A stretch of DNA of 64,000 bases from Candidatus Thiodiazotropha sp. (ex Epidulcina cf. delphinae) (GTDB lineage Bacteria; Pseudomonadota; Gammaproteobacteria; Chromatiales; Chromatiaceae): positions 1 through 64,000 of the forward strand of contig JAHXHS010000002.1 in NCBI GenBank assembly GCA_025656455.1, read 5' to 3'. Below are positions 10,962 to 46,692 of the stretch, in pieces. The first letter of the stretch is position 1. Every line of letters starts with the position of its first letter. Below the pieces are notes generated by a model, which was not told where the DNA came from, did not search any database, and saw only the letters and a list, made by a program, of their open reading frames with translations. The translations under genes were made by a program, and so were the position numbers.

Positions 10962-11615
10962 GTGACTGCTGCTTCCTCCACCCGCACGACAACCACGTTC
11001 GAAGCTAAATCGCTAGCATGCATCCGCGACGATCGGGTGCTGTTCGAGGACCTTGGCTTCACGATTACATCCGGGCAGGCCCTGGTGCTGGAGGGGCGTA
11101 ACGGCAGTGGCAAGACCTCTCTGTTGCGGATACTCTGCGGCATCCGCCTGCCGGAGTCGGGCGAGTTGTTCTGGGAGGGAGACAGCATCTTCCGTCTCGG
11201 GCCTGAATTCCATGAACACATGGCCTATCTGGGACACAAGGACGGCTCCAAACTCGACCTGACCCCCTTAGAGAATCTTCGTATCGCCCGCGGACTCGGC
11301 AAGGCCCGCGCGGACATCGGTCTGGAGGAGGCGTTGGATCAAGTGGGGCTGTACGGTTTCGAGGATGTTCCGACGCGTAACCTCTCGGCAGGACAACAGC
11401 GCCGCTTGGCTATCGCCAGACTGCTGGTGACTGACGCAAAACTGTGGATCCTCGACGAACCCTTCACCTCTCTCGACAGGAAAGGCATCGAACATATGGA
11501 GCGCCTGTTCGAGGGACATCTCAACCGGGGAGGCATGGCTGCCATGACGACCCATCACCGGATCGGCTTCAAGGATGATGTCCAACTGGTGCGTATCAAC
11601 CTATCCGAACGATGA
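10962..11615 (+). CDS. ccmA: Heme exporter ATP-binding protein CcmA
   Basis: ATPase of the CcmAB(CD) complex; its ATP hydrolysis releases holo-CcmE (heme chaperone) during System I cytochrome c maturation. 217 residues from a GTG start. Walker A is LEGRNGSGKTSLLRILCG (about residues 45-62), the signature LSAGQQRRLAIARL and Walker B KLWILDEPF. It opens the nine-gene ccm operon (10962-17987); the stop overlaps the ccmB start by 4 bases. Confidence 0.96.
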   Translation: MTAASSTRTTTTFEAKSLACIRDDRVLFEDLGFTITSGQALVLEGRNGSGKTSLLRILCGIRLPESGELFWEGDSIFRLGPEFHEHMAYLGHKDGSKLDLTPLENLRIARGLGKARADIGLEEALDQVGLYGFEDVPTRNLSAGQQRRLAIARLLVTDAKLWILDEPFTSLDRKGIEHMERLFEGHLNRGGMAAMTTHHRIGFKDDVQLVRINLSER

Positions 11616-12295
11616 GTACTCTTTCCCTCACCAGCGCCTTCTCCATGCTCCTGAAACGGGATCTGGTCCTGGCCTATCGTCGCCGGGCGGAAATGGTCAA
11701 CCCGATGCTGTTTTTTGTCCTGGTCACCGCCATGTTTCCCCTGGGAATAGGTAATGACCCGAAACTGATAGAAGCGGTGGGACCCGGGGTGATCTGGGTG
11801 GCCGCCCTGCTTGCCGCCCTGCTCTCCCTTGACAGCATGTTCCGTTCCGACTTCGATGACGGCTCCCTGGAGCAGTTCATGCTGAGCGCCCATCCGGTCT
11901 CCATCCTGGTGCTGGCGAAGGTGCTGGCCCACTGGCTGGTCACCGGACTGCCGTTGTTCATCGTCGCTCCCCTGTTGGCGGTGTTGCTGAACATCCCTGC
12001 TTCCGCCATTCCCACCCTGATGCTGACCCTGGTGCTGGGTACGCCGGTGCTCAGCCTGATCGGATCGGTGGGCGTGGCCCTGACGGTCGGTTTAAGGCGC
12101 GGCGGGGTAATACTTTCGTTGCTGGTGCTGCCCCTCTATGTACCGGTGCTGATTTTTGCCACCGACGCAGTGAAAACTGCTATTGTCGGAATTCCGACGA
12201 CAGCGCAACTGTCGATTTTATCCGCCATGCTGGTGGGCTCCCTGGTGCTGGCACCAGTGGCCACCGCCGCTTCATTGAGAATCAGTCTAAGTTGA
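11612..12295 (+). CDS. ccmB: Heme exporter protein CcmB
   Basis: Six-helix inner-membrane partner of CcmA, 227 residues. The N-terminal LLKRDLVLAYRRRAEMVNPMLFFVLV and the later motif RSDFDDGSLEQFMLS are typical of CcmB; hydrophobic segments fill the rest. It is coupled to ccmA by an ATGA overlap and overlaps or abuts ccmC, depending on which ccmC start is used. Confidence 0.96.
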   Translation: MSTLSLTSAFSMLLKRDLVLAYRRRAEMVNPMLFFVLVTAMFPLGIGNDPKLIEAVGPGVIWVAALLAALLSLDSMFRSDFDDGSLEQFMLSAHPVSILVLAKVLAHWLVTGLPLFIVAPLLAVLLNIPASAIPTLMLTLVLGTPVLSLIGSVGVALTVGLRRGGVILSLLVLPLYVPVLIFATDAVKTAIVGIPTTAQLSILSAMLVGSLVLAPVATAASLRISLS

Positions 12296-13044
12296 ATATG
12301 ATCATACGCTTCTTTCATCAAATGGGCTCTCCCCGCTATTTCTACGGCGTGGCGGGCAAACTGATCCCCTGGTTCATGATCAGTTTCTTGGTTACCCTGG
12401 TGGTGGGGCTCTATTACGGCCTATTCGTGGCCCCGACCGACTATCAGCAGGGTGAAAGCTATCGCATCATGTACATCCATGTGCCGGCGGCCTGGATGTC
12501 GATGTTCATCTATGTGGTGATGGCCGTCTCCGGACTCATCAGCCTGGTCTGGCGCATCAAGATGACCGAGGTGGTCGTCATCAGCAGCGCCACCGTGGGC
12601 GCCTGGTTCACCTTCCTGGCCCTGGCCACCGGTTCCTTGTGGGGCAAGCCGATGTGGGGGACCTGGTGGGTCTGGGACGCACGCCTGACAGCCGAACTGC
12701 TGCTGCTGTTTCTCTATCTGGGGATCATCGCCCTGCACAGCGCCATCGAGGATAAACGGGTGGCGGCGCGCGCCGTCTCGATCCTGGCGCTGGTGGGGGT
12801 GGTCAACATTCCCATCATTCACTACTCGGTGGAGTGGTGGAATACCTTGCACCAGCCAGCCTCGGTCACTAAATTCGATAAACCCTCCATGGACGTGAGC
12901 ATGCTGATACCCCTGCTGACAATGGCCATCTCCTTTAAACTTTATTATGGCGCCGTGGTCTTAATGCGCGCCCGGGCGGAAATCATCGAACGCGAACGTA
13001 ACTCCCGCTGGGTGATGGAAATGGTTGAACAGGAGGCAAAATGA
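12292..13044 (+). CDS. ccmC: Heme exporter/handling protein CcmC
   Basis: Membrane protein that loads heme onto CcmE. The 250-residue product has six hydrophobic segments and the tryptophan-rich heme-handling motif WGTWWVWDARLTAELLL (about residues 121-137), flanked by conserved periplasmic histidines (YIHVPAAWM near residue 62 and IIHYSVEWWNTLHQP near 183-197). The frame can begin at TTG 12292 (4-base overlap with ccmB) or ATG 12298; the ATG is the likelier start. The stop overlaps the ccmD start. Confidence 0.96.
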   Translation: MNMIIRFFHQMGSPRYFYGVAGKLIPWFMISFLVTLVVGLYYGLFVAPTDYQQGESYRIMYIHVPAAWMSMFIYVVMAVSGLISLVWRIKMTEVVVISSATVGAWFTFLALATGSLWGKPMWGTWWVWDARLTAELLLLFLYLGIIALHSAIEDKRVAARAVSILALVGVVNIPIIHYSVEWWNTLHQPASVTKFDKPSMDVSMLIPLLTMAISFKLYYGAVVLMRARAEIIERERNSRWVMEMVEQEAK

Positions 13045-13208
13045 GCGAGTTTTTCGCCATGGGCGGTTATGCGGTCTACGTCTGGCCCTCCTTTTTGTTG
13101 GCGCTGATTGTCCTGGTGGTCAATATCGTAGCGCCTATGCGTCAACGTAAACGTGTTTTAACTGACATTGCCCGCAAAATCCGTCGGGCCAGGAAAGAGC
13201 CTACATGA
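13041..13208 (+). CDS. ccmD: Heme exporter protein CcmD
   Basis: Small single-pass membrane protein of 55 residues needed for release of holo-CcmE from the CcmABCD complex. It begins MSEFFAMGGYAVYVWPSF, with the conserved FFxMGGYAxYVWxS motif of CcmD, then a membrane helix (about residues 17-32) and a strongly basic tail (MRQRKRVLTDIARKIRRAR). An AGGAGG sequence lies 6-12 bases before the ATG. The start overlaps ccmC by 4 bases and the stop overlaps ccmE by 4 bases, so all three are coupled. Confidence 0.93.
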   Translation: MSEFFAMGGYAVYVWPSFLLALIVLVVNIVAPMRQRKRVLTDIARKIRRARKEPT

Positions 13209-13672
13209 ACCCCATTCGCAAGAAACGACTGACACTCATCGGCCTGATGGTCGCGGGCATCGGTGTCGCCGCTTGGCTGGCCCTAAACGCCTTCGATGAA
13301 AATCTGATGTTCTTTTTCTCCCCCTCTGAAGTGGCCGAAGGCAAGGCGCCGGCCGACCACCCCTTCCGCATCGGCGGTCTGGTTGAGGCGGATAGCGTCA
13401 AACGCAAACCCGACGGCCTCACCACCGCCTTCTCGGTGACCGACAACGCCGAGGCGGTTACCGTGGAATACACCGGCATCCTGCCTGATCTGTTTCGTGA
13501 AGGTCAGGGTATCGTCGCCATGGGGCAGCTCAATCAGGAGGGGATCTTCGTTGCCAGTGAAGTGCTTGCCAAGCATGACGAGAACTACATGCCGCCGGAA
13601 GTGGCCGCTTCCCTGAAGACTGCTCACGAAGAGGGGGTGAATAAAATCCAATCGCAGGCCAACGTCCAATGA
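13205..13672 (+). CDS. ccmE: Cytochrome c maturation heme chaperone CcmE
   Basis: Periplasmic, membrane-anchored chaperone that carries heme covalently to the ligation complex. 155 residues: an N-terminal anchor (about 8-28) after a basic KKR, an OB-fold domain, and the heme-attachment motif VLAKHDENYMPPE with His124 as the expected covalent ligand and Tyr128 nearby. Lies between ccmD (4-base overlap) and ccmF (4-base overlap). Confidence 0.96.
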   Translation: MNPIRKKRLTLIGLMVAGIGVAAWLALNAFDENLMFFFSPSEVAEGKAPADHPFRIGGLVEADSVKRKPDGLTTAFSVTDNAEAVTVEYTGILPDLFREGQGIVAMGQLNQEGIFVASEVLAKHDENYMPPEVAASLKTAHEEGVNKIQSQANVQ

Positions 13673-15669
13673 TTCCCGAATTAGGCCATTTCGCACTCAT
13701 TCTCGCGCTCTGCCTGGCGGTCACCCAGGCCGTGGTGCCACTCGCCGGCTCCTACACCCGTACAACATCCTGGATGGCGGCATCCCGAAGCTTGGCTTGG
13801 GGGCAATTCGTTTTTCTCGCCATCTCCCTCGCCATCCTGACCGATGCCTTCCTGGGCAACGACTTTTCGGTCGTCTATGTCGCTCAGCACGGCAATACCA
13901 AACTGCCCGACATGTATAAGATCTCAGCGGTTTGGGGCGCTCATGAGGGCTCTCTGCTGTTGTGGGCATTTATGCTCGCCGCTTGGAGCGTTGCAATCGC
14001 CGCCTTCAGCCGCAACCTGCCGCTGGAGATGGTGTCGCGGGTGCTCTCGGTGATGGGCATGGTCAGTATCGGTTTCCTGCTCTTTATGCTGCTGACCTCC
14101 AATCCCTTTGACAGGACCTTTCCCGTACCCTTTGAAGGCGGCGAACTGAACCCCATGCTCCAGGATCCGGGCCTGGCGATCCATCCGCCCCTGCTCTACA
14201 TGGGTTATGTCGGCTTCTCCGTCGCCTTTGCCTTCGCCATCGCGGCCCTGCTGGGTGGGCGACTGGATGCCTCCTGGGCGCGCTGGTCACGCCCCTGGAC
14301 CACGATAGCCTGGGTCTTTCTCACTTTAGGCATCGCCCTGGGCAGTTGGTGGGCCTACTATGAGTTGGGTTGGGGCGGCTGGTGGTTCTGGGATCCGGTG
14401 GAAAACGCCTCCTTCATGCCCTGGTTGGTCGGCACCGCTTTGATCCACTCCCTGGCGGTGACTGAAAAACGCGGTGCCTTCAAGAGCTGGACCGTGTTGC
14501 TCGCCATCTCGGCCTTTTCCCTGAGCCTGCTGGGCACCTTCCTGGTCCGTTCCGGCGTGCTGACATCGGTGCACTCGTTCGCCTCGGACCCCGCGCGCGG
14601 CATCTTCATCCTGATGTTTTTGCTGGTGGTGATCGGCGGGTCGCTCCTGCTTTACACTTGGCGCGCGCCCTATATTTCAGGCGGAGGACGATTCGATCTG
14701 GTCTCCCGCGAAACCTTCCTGCTGGGCAATAACCTGCTGCTCTCAGTGTTCGCCGCGCTGGTGCTGTTAGGCACCCTCGCCCCGCTGATCTACGATGCGC
14801 TTGAACTCGGCAAGATCTCCGTGGGTTTTCCCTGGTTCAACAAGATGTTTCTGCTCACCACACCCTTTCTCGCCCTGCTCATGGGCATCGGCTCCCTCTC
14901 CCGCTGGAAACATGCAGAACCCTCTCAGTTGGTGACACAGCTACGCATCGCCTTCATCATCAGCCTGTTGTTCGGTCTGCTGAGCCTGCTGCCGCTGTTT
15001 TCAGGGGGTAACTGGTTGGTTGGGCTGGGCATGGGGCTGGCGATGTGGATCGCCACCGCCCATATCGTCAATGTCAAGGACCGGCTGAAGAACAAACAGG
15101 GCTTTTCCGGCTTTTGGCTCGACTTCAAGACCGGCGGGCGCAGCTATTACGGCATGATTCTCGCGCACATCGGGGTTGCGGTATTCATTGTCGGCGTCAC
15201 CCTGGTCAGCAATTTCGGCAAAGAGAACGATGTCCGCATGAGTCCGGGGGATGAGAGCGATATCGCCGGATATACGTTCAAGTTCGAAGGCGTCACGCAA
15301 ACGCCGGGGCCAAACTACAATGCCAATCGCGGCCGTTTCCTGGTCTTCAAGGATGGTGAGCACTTCACCACCCTGGAGCCTGAAAAGCGCACCTACTTCG
15401 TCCAAACCAGACCGATGACCGAGGCGGCCATTGATTGGGGCCTGAGTCGGGATCTCTATGTCTCACTCGGCGAACCGCTGGGTAACGGCGATTGGAGCCT
15501 ACGCCTCTACTACAAGCCCTATGTCCGCTGGATATGGTTGGGCAGCTTACTGATGAGCCTGGGCGGCATTCTCGCTATCACCGACCGGCGTTACCGCACG
15601 GCCAGAATGCGCTCCAGCGAAGCCGCCAATACCGCTGGCGCGGCGGCCCCCGCGATCTCAGGGAGATGA
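13669..15669 (+). CDS. ccmF: Cytochrome c heme lyase subunit CcmF
   Basis: Large membrane component that, with CcmH, attaches heme to apocytochrome CxxCH motifs. The 666-residue product has many hydrophobic segments and the WWD heme-handling motif GWGGWWFWDPVENASFMPW at about residues 230-248. The upstream segment VWGAHEGSLLLW and the following NPMLQDPGLAIHPPLLYMGY are also diagnostic. A periplasmic domain sits near the C-terminus before the last helix (about 620-640). ccmG starts 7 bases after the stop. Confidence 0.97.
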   Translation: MIPELGHFALILALCLAVTQAVVPLAGSYTRTTSWMAASRSLAWGQFVFLAISLAILTDAFLGNDFSVVYVAQHGNTKLPDMYKISAVWGAHEGSLLLWAFMLAAWSVAIAAFSRNLPLEMVSRVLSVMGMVSIGFLLFMLLTSNPFDRTFPVPFEGGELNPMLQDPGLAIHPPLLYMGYVGFSVAFAFAIAALLGGRLDASWARWSRPWTTIAWVFLTLGIALGSWWAYYELGWGGWWFWDPVENASFMPWLVGTALIHSLAVTEKRGAFKSWTVLLAISAFSLSLLGTFLVRSGVLTSVHSFASDPARGIFILMFLLVVIGGSLLLYTWRAPYISGGGRFDLVSRETFLLGNNLLLSVFAALVLLGTLAPLIYDALELGKISVGFPWFNKMFLLTTPFLALLMGIGSLSRWKHAEPSQLVTQLRIAFIISLLFGLLSLLPLFSGGNWLVGLGMGLAMWIATAHIVNVKDRLKNKQGFSGFWLDFKTGGRSYYGMILAHIGVAVFIVGVTLVSNFGKENDVRMSPGDESDIAGYTFKFEGVTQTPGPNYNANRGRFLVFKDGEHFTTLEPEKRTYFVQTRPMTEAAIDWGLSRDLYVSLGEPLGNGDWSLRLYYKPYVRWIWLGSLLMSLGGILAITDRRYRTARMRSSEAANTAGAAAPAISGR

Positions 15670-15676
15670 TCCAGCG

Positions 15677-16213
15677 ATGAATCGATATTTGCGTTACTCA
15701 ATACCCTTACTCATTTTCGCGGTCATCGCCGCCTTTCTCTACAAGGGATTGGGGATGAATCCAAGGGAGATACCCTCCCCCCTGATCGGCAAGTCAATTC
15801 CCGAATTTTCCCTGCCGACCGTGGAAAACGCCGCAACCATGGTCAACAGCGAGAACCTGCTCGGCAAGGTCTATTTGTTGAATGTCTGGGCGACCTGGTG
15901 TGTCTCGTGCCGGGCCGAGCATGAGACATTGGTGCATCTATCCCGCAGCGGCGTGGAGATCGTCGGCCTCAATTGGAAAGACGACAGGGACAAGGCCCTG
16001 GCCTGGCTGAACCGCTTGGGAGATCCCTACATCATCAATATCTTCGACCAAAAGGGTCGCACCGCCATCGATCTCGGCGTGTATGGCGCGCCGGAGACAT
16101 TTCTTGTGGACAGTAAGGGTGTCATCCACTATAAACACGCTGGCCCTATCTCCATGGAGCTGTTCAATAAAACACTCCTGCCCATGATTGAAGATTTGAA
16201 ACGTAAAGGATAA
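15677..16213 (+). CDS. ccmG: Thiol:disulfide interchange protein CcmG/DsbE
   Basis: Periplasmic thioredoxin-like reductant that keeps apocytochrome cysteines reduced before heme attachment. 178 residues with an N-terminal anchor (about 8-24). The active site is WATWCVSCRAEH (Cys75, Cys78) and the GVYGAPETFLVDSKG segment supplies the cis-proline loop and the CcmG-type acidic environment. The CVSC pair differs slightly from the common CxxC of DsbE (WCPSC/WCPTC). Followed 5 bases later by ccmH. Confidence 0.95.
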   Translation: MNRYLRYSIPLLIFAVIAAFLYKGLGMNPREIPSPLIGKSIPEFSLPTVENAATMVNSENLLGKVYLLNVWATWCVSCRAEHETLVHLSRSGVEIVGLNWKDDRDKALAWLNRLGDPYIINIFDQKGRTAIDLGVYGAPETFLVDSKGVIHYKHAGPISMELFNKTLLPMIEDLKRKG

Positions 16214-16218
16214 GACTC

Positions 16219-16698
16219 GTGCGCGCCTTTTTTCTCACCCTGCTGTTTCTCCTCATCCTGCCGTCATCGCATGCCTCCACCCTGGCTGATTACACCTTTG
16301 ACGAACCCGGCAAGGAAGAGGATTTCCGCGCCATTATCGAAGAGATGCGGTGTCTGGTGTGCCAAAATGAGTCCTTGGCCGGGTCCAATGCGGAGCTTGC
16401 GGTCGACCTGCGTAACGAAATCTACGACATGATGAAGACCGGCCAGAGCAAGGACGAGGTTATCGACTTCATGGTCTCCCGTTACGGTGATTTCGTACTC
16501 TACAGCCCGCCGCTCAAACCGACCACCTACCCGATCTGGTTCGGTCCGTTGCTCGTCTTTGTTATCGGCGGCGTGGTTCTCTTCCGTATCCTGAAGCGCA
16601 AGAGTCTTACCCAGGAGACCAAACTCTCGACCGATGAGCAACATCGACTCGATGATCTGTTGAAACAGTCCACTGACACCAGAGACGATACTCAATGA
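16219..16698 (+). CDS. ccmH: Cytochrome c biogenesis protein CcmH (CcmL-type)
   Basis: Periplasm-facing thiol-oxidoreductase subunit of the heme ligation complex. 159 residues: signal peptide (1-19), the redox motif MRCLVCQNESLAGSNA with Cys45 and Cys48, and one membrane helix near residues 103-122 (IWFGPLLVFVIGGVVLFRIL). The GTG start sits 5 bases after the ccmG stop. The short length fits the split arrangement in which the TPR part is a separate gene, here ccmI, overlapping by 4 bases. Confidence 0.95.
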   Translation: MRAFFLTLLFLLILPSSHASTLADYTFDEPGKEEDFRAIIEEMRCLVCQNESLAGSNAELAVDLRNEIYDMMKTGQSKDEVIDFMVSRYGDFVLYSPPLKPTTYPIWFGPLLVFVIGGVVLFRILKRKSLTQETKLSTDEQHRLDDLLKQSTDTRDDTQ

Positions 16699-17987
16699 CC
16701 CAATTTTGGATAATACTCGCCGGGCTGATTGTCCTGGCCATGGCATTTGTCGCGCTGCCGTTAATGCGCAAACGCACCGAGGCCAGCGTTAGCTCCGATG
16801 AACTCAATCTTGCCGTCTTCAAACAGCAACTGGCTGAGCTGGATAGCGATCTGGATAGCGGCATCCTGGACCAGACCCGCTATGACGCCGCACGCAAGGA
16901 CCTGGAAAAAGAACTCCTCACCGATGTATCCGGCAAATCCAACAAACCCGAATCAACGGCTTCCGGACGCGCCATGGCGCTGGCGGCCCTGCTGATTCCG
17001 CTGATGGCCATGCTCCTCTATCAAAATCTCGGTTCACCGGAGATTATTCAACGTCTGGCTGAGCAGCCTACCGCCATGCCGGCCACGGCCTCACATGCAC
17101 AGCAGGGCCAGGGCAGTACCCAAAATCTGCCGCCGATGGAGGACCTGGTCAACCGGCTTGCCAAAAAACTGGAAGACCAGCCGGACAACCTGGATGGCTG
17201 GGTGATGCTGGGACGCAGCTACATGGCCATGAACAATCAGACGGCGGCGATCAATGCCTATGAGCGGGCCCTGCAGATCGACGACGGAAATGTCGGACTG
17301 CTGATCGCCTATGCCGAAGCCGTCGCTGCCACCACCGGCAACGACTTCACCGGCAGATCGGCGCCGATGATAGAAAAGGCCTACCGGCTGGAGCCGAAAA
17401 ACCCCAATGTGCTTTGGCTATCCGGAATTGTCGCCTATCAGCAGAACCAGTTTCAGACCGCGCTGGACCGCTGGCAGCTCCTCCAGGGCATGCTCAAGCC
17501 TCAAACAGCGGAACTCGAATCGGTCACCAAAGCCATTGACGATACCCGCTCAAAGCTGGGCCTTTCCCCAATTGAAGCGCCTTTGCCCAACATAGCCCAG
17601 GCGAAACAACCCGCATCCGCCAAAACCGTTGCCGAAAAATCCAACTCCCTGCTGGTTGAGATCACCCTCTCTCCCGAGTTGCAGGCCAAGGCAAAACCCG
17701 ACGACCTGTTGTTCGTCTACGCCAAGGCCCTCAGCGGTCCTCCCATGCCTCTGGCGGCCGCGAGAAAAAAGGTCAGCGACCTGCCCCTCTCCATCCAGTT
17801 GGATGACAGCATGGCAATGATGCCGCAGATGAAGCTCTCCGCCTTTCCCAAGGTGATCGTTGGCGCTAGGATATCCCTCTCGGGTAATCCAACCGCGCAG
17901 AGCGGGGACCTTGAAGGGGAGTTCAAACCTGTCACTCCCGGCCAACCGGAACCGGTTCGTGTCATCATCAATTCGGTCCATCCATAG
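16695..17987 (+). CDS. ccmI: Cytochrome c biogenesis protein CcmI
   Basis: Membrane-anchored chaperone that presents apocytochrome c to the CcmF/CcmH ligase. 430 residues: an N-terminal helix (about 5-22), a leucine-zipper-like cytoplasmic stretch, a second helix (about 95-112, MALAALLIPLMAMLLYQNLG), then periplasmic TPR units (about 150-290, e.g. GWVMLGRSYMAMNNQTAAINAY split over residues 173-194) and a C-terminal beta-type domain (about 315-430). Last gene of the ccm operon. Confidence 0.94.
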   Translation: MTQFWIILAGLIVLAMAFVALPLMRKRTEASVSSDELNLAVFKQQLAELDSDLDSGILDQTRYDAARKDLEKELLTDVSGKSNKPESTASGRAMALAALLIPLMAMLLYQNLGSPEIIQRLAEQPTAMPATASHAQQGQGSTQNLPPMEDLVNRLAKKLEDQPDNLDGWVMLGRSYMAMNNQTAAINAYERALQIDDGNVGLLIAYAEAVAATTGNDFTGRSAPMIEKAYRLEPKNPNVLWLSGIVAYQQNQFQTALDRWQLLQGMLKPQTAELESVTKAIDDTRSKLGLSPIEAPLPNIAQAKQPASAKTVAEKSNSLLVEITLSPELQAKAKPDDLLFVYAKALSGPPMPLAAARKKVSDLPLSIQLDDSMAMMPQMKLSAFPKVIVGARISLSGNPTAQSGDLEGEFKPVTPGQPEPVRVIINSVHP

Positions 17988-41560: not shown

Positions 41561-41623
41561 GCCTGAGAAGAGACGGAAGCAGTACTTAATCCACGCTTTT
41601 CCCCTGGGCATGGGATTCAAGGC

Positions 41624-41646
41624 GTAGGGTGCGGCCCTGCCGCACC
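41624..41646. repeat. GTGCGGC palindrome after ppk1
   Basis: GTAGGGTGCGGCCCTGCCGCACC, again the element of 3186 and 22.65 kb. It folds on itself and lies between two convergent genes, so it may double as a terminator. Confidence 0.55.
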
Positions 41647-41716
41647 GTGCCAAACAGGATGGCAGTGTACGGGCGCAAAAAAGTGAAAGCCAGCGAAATC
41701 AATTTCTGCCTACATT

Positions 41717-42301
41717 TTACTGGGTAGCAAGATATAGTGTGATAGCTTCAATTTCACCAGAAGTTAACTGCAATAAACTCCTTTGCATCAATCCAAAACG
41801 ATCTGTGGGACGTGTTCCATCCCGTAATTCCAGCAACGTTTTGTATAGGTATTCACTATTCTGTCCACCGATTACAGGCGCCCCTTGTAAAAATAAATTA
41901 CCCTTAACCTTGCCGCGTACACCATGGCAGAACTCACAGTGTCTATTGATATATAACGACTCTCCTTTCTTGACCAGTGGATTGTTGCTCGGATTTCCAG
42001 CCATCACGGGCTGTGAGGAATAATAATCTATTATTTCCAGCAACAGTTTATCATCCGTAATACTGTTTGCTATATCGATCATTGTGGTATCTGCGCGCTT
42101 ACCAGTTTTAAAAGAGTTTATCTCTTTTAACAAATAGGCCTTTTTCTGCCCAATAAGCTTGGGGATAATGGGATCCGGATTATTGTTATCAGCCGTATGG
42201 CACTCAAAACACAACTCCGCTACCTCATCTTTTGCGAATGACTCAGAAATGGAAATTCCTGTAAAAAAAATGATCAGCAGATTATATGCTATCCTGATCA
42301 C
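41717..42301 (-). CDS. Diheme c-type cytochrome (c4-like)
   Basis: 194 residues with a signal peptide (about 1-23). Two heme sites, CFECH (31-35) and CEFCH (122-126), each start a half of about 90 residues with a similar plan (second half: GESLYINRHCEFCHGVRGKV, GAPVIGGQNSEYLYKTLLEL), which fits cytochrome c4 or a related diheme soluble carrier. Last gene of a four-gene minus-strand set, 20 bases after the helical protein. Codon usage is AT-rich compared with flanking genes. Confidence 0.85.
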   Translation of the reverse strand: MIRIAYNLLIIFFTGISISESFAKDEVAELCFECHTADNNNPDPIIPKLIGQKKAYLLKEINSFKTGKRADTTMIDIANSITDDKLLLEIIDYYSSQPVMAGNPSNNPLVKKGESLYINRHCEFCHGVRGKVKGNLFLQGAPVIGGQNSEYLYKTLLELRDGTRPTDRFGLMQRSLLQLTSGEIEAITLYLATQ

Positions 42302-42321
42302 TGTTTATCCCTGAGAAATAT

Positions 42322-43173
42322 TTACCCCGGTATTTTCAAGCCTGTCATCCTAATGACTCTTATCAGAATTTGCGTGGATTTCTCTAATGTCGAGATAGCG
42401 TTTTCGTAGTCTTTGCTTTTTGCGAATATTTCCGCTTTTTTACGAAGCTGATGTGCTAATTGTTTATCTTCCAAGTAAGCGTTGCCGCCATCAGCACTTT
42501 CGACAAATGTCCTAAGCAGCATGAAGTGCGCATCATTTCTATCGACCTCATATCTATACTCTTCTTTTGGATTGGCAAATGAGAGCGTTCTAACCAACGT
42601 GTCACCCATTTTCAATTCTATAATGTTACCCCTTATCAACGCTAATATTTGTTCCATTTCCTGTATGGCTTTACTGTACATATTTTTGGAAGCATGATCC
42701 TGAGCCTGTTGATTTAGTGTATTTATTTTGTCAAGCATCTCCTTGCTTTCATCTACCCCTTTTTCCTTGGCAACCCTGTGAACGGCCAGTAAAAGCGCAT
42801 CAACACTCTCTTTTGTCTCCTCATAAAGGTGGCGATCGGCATCCACATTGACGTTGCCCTTGTCCATGTTGGCGAACATGGTGGCATCAGACAATGCGTC
42901 TGTTGCTTTTTTAATGAATAAATTAGATTTGTTGATGTCGCCTTTCTCGAATTCAATGACGGCAGACTTATATGCGACTTTGGCTAAGTTATAGTATTGA
43001 ATTGCAACATCATTGCCGCTATTCAATATATTTTTACTAACCGATGATGCGTTGATTAGCTTTGTAATTGTGTCTAGTTTTAATTGATGCTTTGGGTTCT
43101 CATTAGCGACAGAAATGCCGATATTCACAGAAAGCAAAATCACCAAAACCATTTTGACGGTATATGATCGCAT
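42322..43173 (-). CDS. Helical periplasmic protein of unknown function in the cytochrome island
   Basis: 283 residues from ATG 43173, which follows a near-perfect AAGGAGGT; the open frame extends 17 codons further, to 43224. Signal peptide about 1-25. The mature chain is almost all amphipathic helix with lysine- and glutamate-rich repeats (LAKVAYKSAVIEFEKGDINK, IQEMEQILALIRGNIIELKM, YENAISTLEKSTQILIRVIR), resembling TPR-like solenoids but without a clear consensus. No heme motif or other cysteine site. Its place between the triheme cytochromes and the diheme cytochrome suggests a scaffold or assembly role. Confidence 0.7.
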   Translation of the reverse strand: MRSYTVKMVLVILLSVNIGISVANENPKHQLKLDTITKLINASSVSKNILNSGNDVAIQYYNLAKVAYKSAVIEFEKGDINKSNLFIKKATDALSDATMFANMDKGNVNVDADRHLYEETKESVDALLLAVHRVAKEKGVDESKEMLDKINTLNQQAQDHASKNMYSKAIQEMEQILALIRGNIIELKMGDTLVRTLSFANPKEEYRYEVDRNDAHFMLLRTFVESADGGNAYLEDKQLAHQLRKKAEIFAKSKDYENAISTLEKSTQILIRVIRMTGLKIPG

Positions 43174-43227
43174 AACCACCTCCTTACACATCTTGTTACA
43201 AAATATCGTTAGATAATCATTCATCGA

Positions 43228-44031
43228 TTACTTCTTCTCTTTAACAACAACTTTTTTATTCGAATGGCACTTAGTGCAGCTTGACAACGGAAAGGCTACC
43301 TTACCATGGCATACACCGCATCTTTTTCCTAGCAGGTTGTCAGCCATGGACATTTTGTTGGCGCCACTTTGCGGGATGAAAATAGCTGGGTGACAGTTTG
43401 AGCAGTCAAGCCAGCGGGTATGCGCTTTATGTGGAAACACAACATCTGGCATTGAACCCTTTACCTGCATGACAATATTCAAATCCATCACCATGGGTTG
43501 AACACTTGGATCAAGTATATCATGACGAGGCTTTATTTTACCTGCATCGATGGCTTTCACCCAATCGACCTTGTTTCCTGTTTTTGCCTTGGGCAGATCA
43601 CGAAAAGCTTCTGAGGGTTTTTGTAAGTATACTAATAATGGATTATCGGGATCATGGAGATCTCTATTCACCATGGATCTTCGTTCCAAGAGCCGGTTAA
43701 ATCTGTTTGGATTCACATTAGCACTCTTGACTGACGCAACGTTAGTTTGCATTGCTTTCTGTTCTGTAGCTTCGGTTTGAGTCGCTTGCTGCCCCGTAGC
43801 GCTGACTTGGGTCACTTGCTGCGCTGTAGTGTTGGTCTGGGCCGCTTTCTGCTCTATATTCATAGCTTGTTTTACGTCCGATTCCACCTGCTTTGTTTGC
43901 TTGATATCCTGTTTTGTTTCATCACTCTTTCGTTCATCTGTCGTCACTGTGTTAGGTGCTGAGGAACAGGCATAACCGGCTATCATGACACTACAAATGA
44001 ATAGCGCATTCTGTACCATGTATTTTTTCAT
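43228..44031 (-). CDS. Triheme c(7)-type cytochrome with a long linker
   Basis: 267 residues. The N-terminus has a hydrophobic signal with Cys22 (IAGYAC), possibly a lipoprotein anchor. Residues 23-60 are charged and Gln/Lys/Thr-rich; 61-100 are four 10-residue repeats (e.g. QQVTQVSATG, QQATQTEATE). The C-terminus (about 195-267) is a c7-type triheme domain: VVFPHKAHTRWLDCSNCHPAIF is split over 197-218, with heme sites CSNCH (210-214), CGVCH (238-242) and CTKCH (252-256), and likely axial histidines at 201 and 204. The layout suggests a tethered electron carrier reaching across the periplasm. Confidence 0.85.
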   Translation of the reverse strand: MKKYMVQNALFICSVMIAGYACSSAPNTVTTDERKSDETKQDIKQTKQVESDVKQAMNIEQKAAQTNTTAQQVTQVSATGQQATQTEATEQKAMQTNVASVKSANVNPNRFNRLLERRSMVNRDLHDPDNPLLVYLQKPSEAFRDLPKAKTGNKVDWVKAIDAGKIKPRHDILDPSVQPMVMDLNIVMQVKGSMPDVVFPHKAHTRWLDCSNCHPAIFIPQSGANKMSMADNLLGKRCGVCHGKVAFPLSSCTKCHSNKKVVVKEKK

Positions 44032-44049
44032 GCTAACCCCACTTTCCGC

Positions 44050-44442
44050 TCATTGAGTTTTCTGGCTTTTTTTCATATTCTGGATTTTTTCCTGCGTACC
44101 GATATTGCCACGGGTTTTTATCTCTTTTTCACCCGTATGGCATAGATCGCACTGATCAATACCCCAGGCAATATCTCCATTATGACAGCCACCACAAAAC
44201 CGCCCGTTCATAATATCAAGCATTTTTATTTTGTTTTCACCAGCTTTGAAATGCATGCCAAGATCATGATGGCAGACCTTACAGGTGAAGCGAATGCGGT
44301 GAAACCAGTGAGGGAATACGACTGGGTTGATGCCCGCTTCACTCGAGTAATTATTTATTACAACATCACCATATTCAGCACTTGAATAATTGCTGGGGAT
44401 ATACAACAACAATGCAATTATTAAACTACTTATCATCTTCAT
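44050..44442 (-). CDS. Triheme c(7)-type cytochrome, short form
   Basis: 130 residues from ATG 44442, preceded by GGGTGG; the frame itself could begin at TTG 44457. Signal peptide about 1-22. The mature part is almost only the c7-type triheme domain: VVFPHWFHRIRFTCKVCHHD, heme sites CKVCH (54-58), CGGCH (83-87) and CDLCH (98-102). The VFPHWFHR...MLDIMNGRFCGGCHNGDIAW pattern matches the periplasmic triheme domain called nanowire-type in multiheme conduits. First gene of the operon; the long triheme gene starts 18 bases later. Confidence 0.87.
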   Translation of the reverse strand: MKMISSLIIALLLYIPSNYSSAEYGDVVINNYSSEAGINPVVFPHWFHRIRFTCKVCHHDLGMHFKAGENKIKMLDIMNGRFCGGCHNGDIAWGIDQCDLCHTGEKEIKTRGNIGTQEKIQNMKKSQKTQ

Positions 44443-44479
44443 AATAACGCCACCCAATTTATATCGTGTAAATAACGCG

Positions 44480-44924
44480 GAATCGGCTCGCTAGTACTAC
44501 CGTTGGGTTGATGCCGAAAAACACTTGATTCAGTCTTTTCATACCAAAGCATTTCCTTGGTCAGCTTTCGAGCTTAATTCATAATGGGGATTTTGGTCGG
44601 GGCCTGCCCACAACACTCGTAGCCTTGGTCTCTTCTTGTATTGCTTCTGGCACCACACTGTGCTTGTCCTGGAGAATGGTATCCGCTCATGGCTGACAGT
44701 AAAGTGTCCGCCACCGTCAGCCAGAGGTTGATTTGCTCAGGGCTCCAGTCTTCCTGGGTGATGCGACTGCGGGCTTTGAGCCGAGGATGGTTGGTAGCCA
44801 ATTGACGGGCCTGCTTAGGCCGATAGTCTTTCAGGCCGCAGTTATGACGTAATTCATTACTAATAGTGAGGTTATAAATTCCCACTATCTTGGCGACCTC
44901 AATCTGGTTATGGCCTGCTTTCAT
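44480..44924 (-). pseudogene. IS30-family transposase remnant
   Basis: The frame 44924-44574 has the N-terminal helix-turn-helix core (KAGHNQIEVAKIVGIYNLTI, SNELRHNCGLKDYRPKQARQ) and RSRITQEDWSPEQINLWL of IS30-type transposases, then loses homology. A second frame downstream continues with SHERI..., TVWCQKQYKKRPRL, matching the next part, so there is a frameshift, and the DDE catalytic domain is missing. Terminal repeats were not found. Confidence 0.7.
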
Positions 44925-45423
44925 CAGGACGTGTATCCGTCTATGAACTCATTGACGCCTCTCATTCTTTTGCCGGAGCGAAAGGCCAAATTTCCCCTCT
45001 ATTCCGACTCTGCGAACGGCACTAACGAGTTAAATCCGAGTAATATAAAAACGGATGATTGTATAAGAATCACAATCTGTCAACATATTTTATGCGAATA
45101 TTAGTATATTTTATGAAGATTTCCTGAATTTCCGGGCCATCCATTTTGAAAAAAGCTAAGTATCCGCGTTCTTAGAACGCGGAGTTGCCTCAAGCCCTCT
45201 AAACCGAAGCCCTTTGTTTGCTAAACCAGCATAGAAATCATGTATAATATATTGAATTTATGCGCAATATTATTCTTTACATAGTGGAAAAGTGGCTCGT
45301 TCAGGAGGATGAAACATAACCTGTCTGGAGACACGGCAAAACGCTTAAGGTGTCTGCTGCAGTCAGCACATCAGGCGACATTTGAAGACAGCAAGCAAAG
45401 TAATCGAAGAGAATCCCCTACAA
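44925..45423. other. AT-rich gap between the IS30 remnant and the transporter gene
   Basis: About 500 bases with no convincing gene. It holds a perfect 21-base palindrome, TCCGCGTTCT-T-AGAACGCGGA (45163-45183), followed by GTTGCCTCAAG, and a TATAAT hexamer at 45243. A possible ATG frame at 45309 has AGGAGG only one base upstream and runs into the antisense of the next gene; it is not called. Confidence 0.4.
45163..45183. repeat. Perfect 21-bp palindrome, possible IS200/IS605 end hairpin
   Basis: 10-base arms around one central T. IS200/IS605-type elements end in such subterminal hairpins followed by a cleavage tetra- or pentanucleotide, and the TCAAG that follows is compatible. No TnpA or TnpB is present in the window, so this would be a solo or relic end. 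Confidence 0.35.
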
Positions 45424-46692
45424 TCAGGACTCGGCTTGCAGATCGTCGCCGCTCTCTTGGTCGACCGAAACCCGCTGCAAAACCACCTGATGGATGCGCC
45501 GGGACGAGGCATCCTGAACACGCACTATCAAGCCGTCCAGTTCGAACCGTTCATCCTTCACCGGAATGCGTTCGGTGTGCTCCAGCAGCCAGCGGTTGAT
45601 GGTGTCGGTGGGTTTGCCGGGAATATCCATGTCATAGTACTCTTCTACGACACGCAGCTCGGCCGTGCCTTTGACAAGCACCTTACCCTCGCCCAGGACC
45701 ATCAGGTCATTCGGTTTTTCGTCGCTCTCGTCGTAGATCTCGCCCACCAGCTCTTCCAGCATATCCTCCAGCGAAACCACGCCGACCATCGCGCCATGTT
45801 CATCGACCACCACAGCGAGATGAATACTCTTTGTCTTCAAGGTGCGTATCAACTCGTCAATGGTTGTATTCGACGGGGTATAGAGCGGCTCATGCCCCAA
45901 ATCCGAGATCGGCACATCCAGTTCGCCGGCGGCGATATTGCGGATCAGGTCGCGCAGGATCACCAGACTGACGATCTCATCCGGGTCCTCTTTGTAAAGG
46001 GGAATGCGTGAATAGCCCGCCTTGAGAATCTCCGGCAGGACATCCCGCAACATTCGGCGGCCATCCAGACGTAATACCTGCCTCCTAGGGGTCATCACGT
46101 CCTCGGCCTTCAGGTCATTGAAATTGAAGATGCGCTCGATCATTTCCCGCTCGCCGGTATCAATCACACCTTCTTCTTCGCCATGTTCGATTAGCGTGAT
46201 GACCTCTGATTCCGTCACCAACGGATCATCCATTGCATTGGTCGAGGATTGCACCCAGTTGGTGAACTGCAGGAACAGCCACACCAGAGGATAGATCAGG
46301 CGCATGAAGCCGAAGATGACAGGCGAGATAAACAGCGAGATCCGTTCCGAAAAACGGGTGGCGAGACTCTTGGGGGTGATCTCTCCGAATACCAGGATCA
46401 GGATGGTCAAGACACCGACGGCAATTCCCGGCCCGCTGTCACCGAAATAGTCGGTTGCGATAACCGTCGCCATCGCAGAGGCGGCGATATTGACCACATT
46501 GTTGCCGATCAGAATGGTAATCAGCATCCGACTGGGGTCTTTCTTTAGCAGATAGAGGGCATGGGAGCCTCGCCGGCCTTCCTTGTACAACGACTCGGCG
46601 CGAGCCATTGATAGGGTTACCAGAGCTGTCTCTGAACCGGAAAAAACGCCGGACAGCACCAGAAGCACTGCCAAAATCAGGTAACTTTCCAC
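45424..46692 (-). CDS. CNNM/CorC (HlyC)-family transporter
   Basis: 422 residues: an N-terminal DUF21 (CNNM) membrane domain (about 1-180; GVFSGSETALVTLSMARAES, ILIGNNVVNIAASAMATVIA), a CBS pair (about 200-325; VMTPRRQVLRLDG, HLAVVVDEHGAMVGVVSLED) and a C-terminal CorC_HlyC domain (about 335-415). Family members are divalent cation (magnesium, cobalt) efflux or resistance proteins; the old hemolysin label is not supported by function. Monocistronic, read toward the cytochrome island. Confidence 0.92.
   Translation of the reverse strand: MESYLILAVLLVLSGVFSGSETALVTLSMARAESLYKEGRRGSHALYLLKKDPSRMLITILIGNNVVNIAASAMATVIATDYFGDSGPGIAVGVLTILILVFGEITPKSLATRFSERISLFISPVIFGFMRLIYPLVWLFLQFTNWVQSSTNAMDDPLVTESEVITLIEHGEEEGVIDTGEREMIERIFNFNDLKAEDVMTPRRQVLRLDGRRMLRDVLPEILKAGYSRIPLYKEDPDEIVSLVILRDLIRNIAAGELDVPISDLGHEPLYTPSNTTIDELIRTLKTKSIHLAVVVDEHGAMVGVVSLEDMLEELVGEIYDESDEKPNDLMVLGEGKVLVKGTAELRVVEEYYDMDIPGKPTDTINRWLLEHTERIPVKDERFELDGLIVRVQDASSRRIHQVVLQRVSVDQESGDDLQAES

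Follow-up and report, generated by a model that had tools for sequence, protein, structure and literature searches.

Organization of the four-gene island

The analyzed DNA, referred to here as the window, is a 64,000-nucleotide stretch of the genome of Candidatus Thiodiazotropha sp. (ex Epidulcina cf. delphinae). It carries an island of four genes, all on the minus strand, that spans 2.7 kb (41717-44442). In coordinate order, the genes encode a periplasmic diheme protein of the cytochrome c4 type with two class I cytochrome c domains (41717-42301; PF00034, 2.5e-11), an exported, heme-free, all-helical protein built of successive helical bundles (42322-43173) and two triheme c7-type cytochromes. 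The helical protein gave weak TPR matches and is designated UetF-like (TPR-like). The UetE-like triheme (43228-44031; PF14522, 9.1e-10) has a long Q/T/K-rich linker and is a possible lipoprotein, and the UetD-like triheme (44050-44442; PF14522, 1.7e-12) has a signal peptide and is predicted to be soluble and periplasmic. The genes are separated by 20, 54 and 18 bases. Three CxxCH motifs were counted in each triheme, two in the diheme and none in the helical protein.

The island is the most AT-rich stretch of the window, with 41% GC against a mean of 55.6% (s.d. 4.1). The GC content of its genes is 40-44% and their GC3 is 0.41-0.44, compared with 0.65-0.74 for the flanking ppk, corC-like and iPGM genes. 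The original prediction had described four genes with this spacing, these heme plans and a heme-less helical protein, in a setting richer in AT than its flanks and with no adjacent porin. The gene coordinates, the Pfam and NCBIfam matches and the base composition agree with this description, and no porin gene was found beside 41717-44442.

The island as an insertion

Comparison with congeneric genomes by blastn delimited a segment (41593-45471, no strand assigned) that is inserted between ppk and the corC-like gene. Similarity ends at about 41592 and restarts at about 45472; the final 48 bases of the segment belong to the corC-like gene, whose end is divergent. The spacing between ppk and the corC-like gene is 3.9 kb in the window and shorter in all eight congeneric genomes, being approximately 50-170 bases in seven and 2.4 kb, with other genes in between, in the eighth (G013). 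At this junction (L062:2201-4503; L054), G013 has UspA-like and Na/Pi cotransporter-like genes and a further genome, G017, is rearranged, so the site varies.

The nearest relative of the island was found in a metagenome-assembled genome (L063), where the first triheme is 84% identical and the genes have 75.5-84.6% DNA identity. The low GC3, the wide gap relative to the congeners and this nearest relative indicate that the island is an insertion acquired horizontally from another bacterium. The suggestion that it is a transferred module was thus borne out by the foreign GC3 and the congeneric ppk-corC junctions. A possible N-terminal remnant of an IS30-family transposase lies at 44574-44924 on the minus strand (NF033563, a weak match with E 0.042), and a DNA search found no full copy of the element in the genome. 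The remnant is a hint, not proof, of the vehicle of transfer.

Relation to the Uet cluster

The undecaheme electron transfer (Uet) cluster is known from Ca. Tenderia electrophaga and Gallionella (PMC5371394, PMC10734462). It consists of a tetraheme (UetA), a PPIase (UetB), a porin (UetC), trihemes (UetD, UetE and UetG), NHL proteins (UetH and UetI) and an undecaheme (UetJ) (PMC10734462). The Ca. Tenderia trihemes Tel_16515, 16520 and 16530 flank a TPR gene, Tel_16525; these genes are apparently cotranscribed and are among the most expressed on the cathode (PMC5371394). Relatives of the system are associated with cathode oxidation and with iron oxidizers (PMC5371394, PMC10734462). The UetF label used here is based on the gene order in these two papers.

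A scan of 84,980 species genomes for homologues yielded 449 stretches with relatives of the first triheme, of which the 80 ranked best by likeness to the window copy were mapped with home-made profiles. The conserved order begins with NHL, an OmcE-like tetraheme, PPIase, a porin of about 600 residues, triheme A and triheme B, and continues with one or two helical proteins, triheme B', triheme A', an NHL lipoprotein, the undecaheme and ResB/CcsA. Of 86 loci, 82 have triheme A next to triheme B, and in 79 the helical protein lies beside the trihemes; the porin is present in 71 and the undecaheme in 56. Loci in which the porin, tetraheme and undecaheme accompany homologues of the trihemes and the helical protein are spread across Proteobacteria, and two genomes of the same genus (G004 and G010) contain full clusters. 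The tetraheme of the mapped loci matches OmcE (7TFS, E 1.5e-24). This order fits the published description of Uet.

These comparisons indicate that the trihemes and the helical protein of the island are homologous to periplasmic components of the Uet cluster. The island has tandem c7 trihemes of the UetD/E type, with the strongly conserved core and in the same order as in Uet, followed by a TPR/helical protein that is nested in the tree among Uet-type helical proteins (Tel_16525 was compared by description). The genes for the tetraheme, PPIase, porin, NHL proteins and undecaheme are, in contrast, absent from the locus, and a cytochrome c4 is added. Because UetC, UetA and UetJ are missing, the island is not itself a Uet cluster; it derives from the periplasmic part of one. 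The original prediction of the periplasmic half of an uncharacterised outer-membrane pathway therefore held for the periplasmic role and failed for the word uncharacterised, since components of Uet make the pathway a familiar one in kind.

A complete Uet cluster elsewhere in the genome was rejected, as TIGR04257 matched only the two island genes. The OmcE-like loci were likewise rejected as the remainder of Uet; they are scattered and have no Uet-type porin alongside. Six further OmcE-like tetra- or pentaheme genes on contigs C32, C22, C36, C18 and C11 (L216-L220) sit apart from other cytochrome clusters and may encode nanowire cytochromes. In comparison with OmcE nanowire clusters, OmcE-like tetrahemes occur in the related and partner clusters and not in the island itself.

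Properties of the individual proteins

The UetD-like and UetE-like proteins scored 59.8 and 65.4 bits, respectively, against TIGR04257 (cut-off 40). The UetD-like triheme is 45-56% identical to homologues located in Uet-type loci, with strict conservation of three CxxCH motifs and of the core around a PxxFxHWFHR motif. The c7 triheme domain is shared by sequence with Geobacter PpcA/GSU1996 (3ov0, E 3.6e-42; 1rwj, 1.4e-13), whereas the gene neighbourhood and partners differ.

The UetE-like protein is possibly a lipoprotein with a lipobox-like Cys after the signal h-region; the call is tentative because residue -3 is Gly. A fourth heme motif is present in about 37 of the 152 UetE-like proteins. 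In three that were scanned, the additional motif lies in a class I cytochrome c domain at the N terminus, which a long, low-complexity linker connects to the triheme domain (L094:10384-11397, L067:10388-11416 and L133:6674-7645); the other 34 or so were counted as fusions by their four motifs. The fused domain suggests a tie between UetE and class I cytochromes.

The helical protein was modelled by AlphaFold as all helix, with good local and poor global confidence (pLDDT 86.7, pTM 0.52). A Foldseek search for a solved fold gave no match at E < 1, and the VIA matches were generic helical bundles, 4fzp and designed proteins, with no specific solved relative among them. The YfdX profile did not match the window protein at E 1 and matched the homologue in L028 below threshold (E 0.0097). 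Two UetF-like proteins (L028:7209-8552 and L112:11125-12720) have an N-terminal cupredoxin-like domain with a CxxHxxM-type motif (PF25489, 8e-7 in L028). Membership of a known unrelated family, which would have counted against the original prediction, was not found; the protein is a partner of the trihemes in 79 of the 86 loci. By analogy with the role proposed for the Tenderia TPR protein, it may act as a scaffold.

The diheme is an exported cytochrome c4-type protein with two class I heme c domains. A profile of the five copies described below matched the cytochrome c4 structure 6q2u over its full length (E 1.6e-32). It shares the two-domain plan with the c4/PdsA diheme shuttles; assignment as a PdsA equivalog was rejected, with 57.1 bits for NF049874 against a cut-off of 330.

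A satellite module in five genomes

The order triheme A, triheme B, helical protein and c4 was found in the window and in four other genomes, all gammaproteobacterial (L063, L065, L069 and L026, which is the same as L084). Recurrence of the four-gene order elsewhere had been proposed as a check, and these five loci answer it. Because the same order recurs in four other genomes, it is beyond chance. None of the five loci contains a porin, and they are referred to here as the satellite module. The proteins are approximately 31-75% identical across genomes, with gene order conserved. In the helical-protein tree, the five satellites form one group (support 100/99), with one change in all bootstrap trees; they also group together in the trees of triheme B (support 0.94) and triheme A (0.84). 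Most simply, a single origin of the module followed by its spread would account for this grouping. Taken together, the gene order and phylogeny indicate that the island is a conserved, cut-down and separately travelling derivative of the Uet periplasmic part, with cytochrome c4.

The possibility was considered that the island is a decaying Uet fragment, brought in by transposition and non-functional in this genome. The foreign composition, the IS30 remnant and the lack of both MtrB and other Uet trihemes in the genome are in its favor. However, none of the four reading frames is disrupted, the signal sequences and heme motifs are preserved, and decay does not explain an order kept in four other genomes at such protein identities. 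This explanation is considered very improbable.

The satellite UetE-like proteins have a lipobox-like Cys, by the strict motif in three of the five and by eye in the other two. They differ from many Uet relatives in having no fused class I domain; the Cys and a long linker occupy its position. Since the fused domain is missing and the module also encodes a class I cytochrome with two domains, we infer that the satellite c4 stands in for the domain fused to UetE in relatives.

Several neighbouring arrangements were also seen. In L089 (9974-19642) and L103, trihemes A and B are followed by a c4-like diheme and a 30-heme protein, and the helical protein is missing. In L063 (14150-17441), AioAB-like arsenite oxidase genes, identified by eye, lie about 4 kb from the module, with a MauG-like diheme protein and a second helical gene between them. 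A cytochrome c maturation (ccm) operon was identified by eye in the window at 10962-17987, and ccm genes also adjoin the module in L065.

A candidate outer-membrane partner

The genome was searched for porin-cytochrome genes, and a porin-multiheme cluster was found on a different contig from the island (contig C7, 93796-116272; L022/L023/L151). It encodes an OmcE-like tetraheme (7TFS, E 5.7e-28), NHL proteins, a probable porin, 11-, 8-, 7- and 6-heme proteins, cytochrome b561-like proteins, membrane trihemes and a 20-heme protein. A strand-counting script discriminated poorly, with the ppk control also scoring high, so the porin call rests on sequence character and a weak link to the UetC profile (probability 39.6%, E 3e-4). 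An Mtr/Mto conduit was rejected, as the MtrB/PioB porin profile (PF11854) had no match in the genome. No published description of a C7-type cluster was found in the literature searched.

In L065, the satellite module directly adjoins a homologous cluster. With an orthologue of one of the C7 hexahemes as the marker, the C7-type cluster was detected in four of the five satellite genomes and in none of 49 other triheme/Uet-type genomes (45 and 5 from two sets, one counted twice; p ~2e-5, ignoring phylogeny). Among 210 genomes of the order, 13 have the marker, and the satellite genome L069 has no clear orthologue. In the close relative G017, the C7 cluster is present and the island absent, so the link is an association and not a dependency. 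Moreover, membrane trihemes and cytochrome b proteins are encoded within the cluster itself, which therefore may not need the module.

The module could instead be a soluble periplasmic electron store or shuttle, independent of extracellular electron transfer, in which the trihemes buffer electrons and c4 feeds an oxidase when donors are scarce. All five loci are porin-free, and the PpcA/GSU1996-type c7 cytochromes, to which homology was computed here, are located in the periplasm. However, most relatives lie beside a porin and a surface cytochrome, and the module co-occurs with a C7-type conduit, which makes a store or shuttle a rather improbable explanation.

Proposed function of the module

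The four genes probably move electrons between the inner and outer membranes. On balance, we favor the satellite module as a periplasmic bridge that serves the C7 conduit and is connected to the respiratory chain by c4. The grounds are homology, gene order, a single lineage, the insertion and co-occurrence, from which the protein contacts, the identity of the partner and the direction of flow are extrapolated. The two trihemes would form a periplasmic heme chain, held or aligned by the UetF-like protein, and c4 would mediate electron exchange of the UetE-like triheme with class I cytochrome partners in the respiratory chain, a cbb3-type oxidase or bc1. As the island encodes no porin, the outer-membrane end would be supplied in trans, most likely by the OmcE-like, porin, 11-heme and cytochrome b components of C7.

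Inward uptake of electrons would be slightly favored. In the reverse direction, quinol-linked cytochrome b proteins of C7 would reduce the trihemes, and these would pass the electrons on to minerals or partner cells by way of the C7 porin. The cytochrome b561-like proteins and membrane trihemes of the cluster are consistent with such an outward flow; cytochrome c4 proteins, however, usually supply oxidases, and Uet relatives are tied to cathode oxidation and iron oxidizers. Outward flow is accordingly regarded as unlikely, although less so than a store or shuttle.

The kind of system, Uet, is known; what is new is the porin-less satellite form with c4, for which the C7 cluster is a proposed partner. 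In extracellular electron transfer, the passage of electrons across the periplasm is poorly understood, and a recurrent four-gene module, parted from the porin and joined to c4, offers a small testable set for it. More tentatively, and with the odds somewhat against it, the Uet periplasmic arm may be a portable adaptor between genomes that uses c4 to connect a second, apparently undescribed conduit with the respiratory chain, in which case such pathways would evolve by swaps of periplasmic modules. With 449 confirmed stretches, Uet-type trihemes range far wider than the few lineages named previously (PMC5371394, PMC10734462). Furthermore, the module is a hint of possible electron exchange between members of the Sedimenticolaceae and their surroundings.
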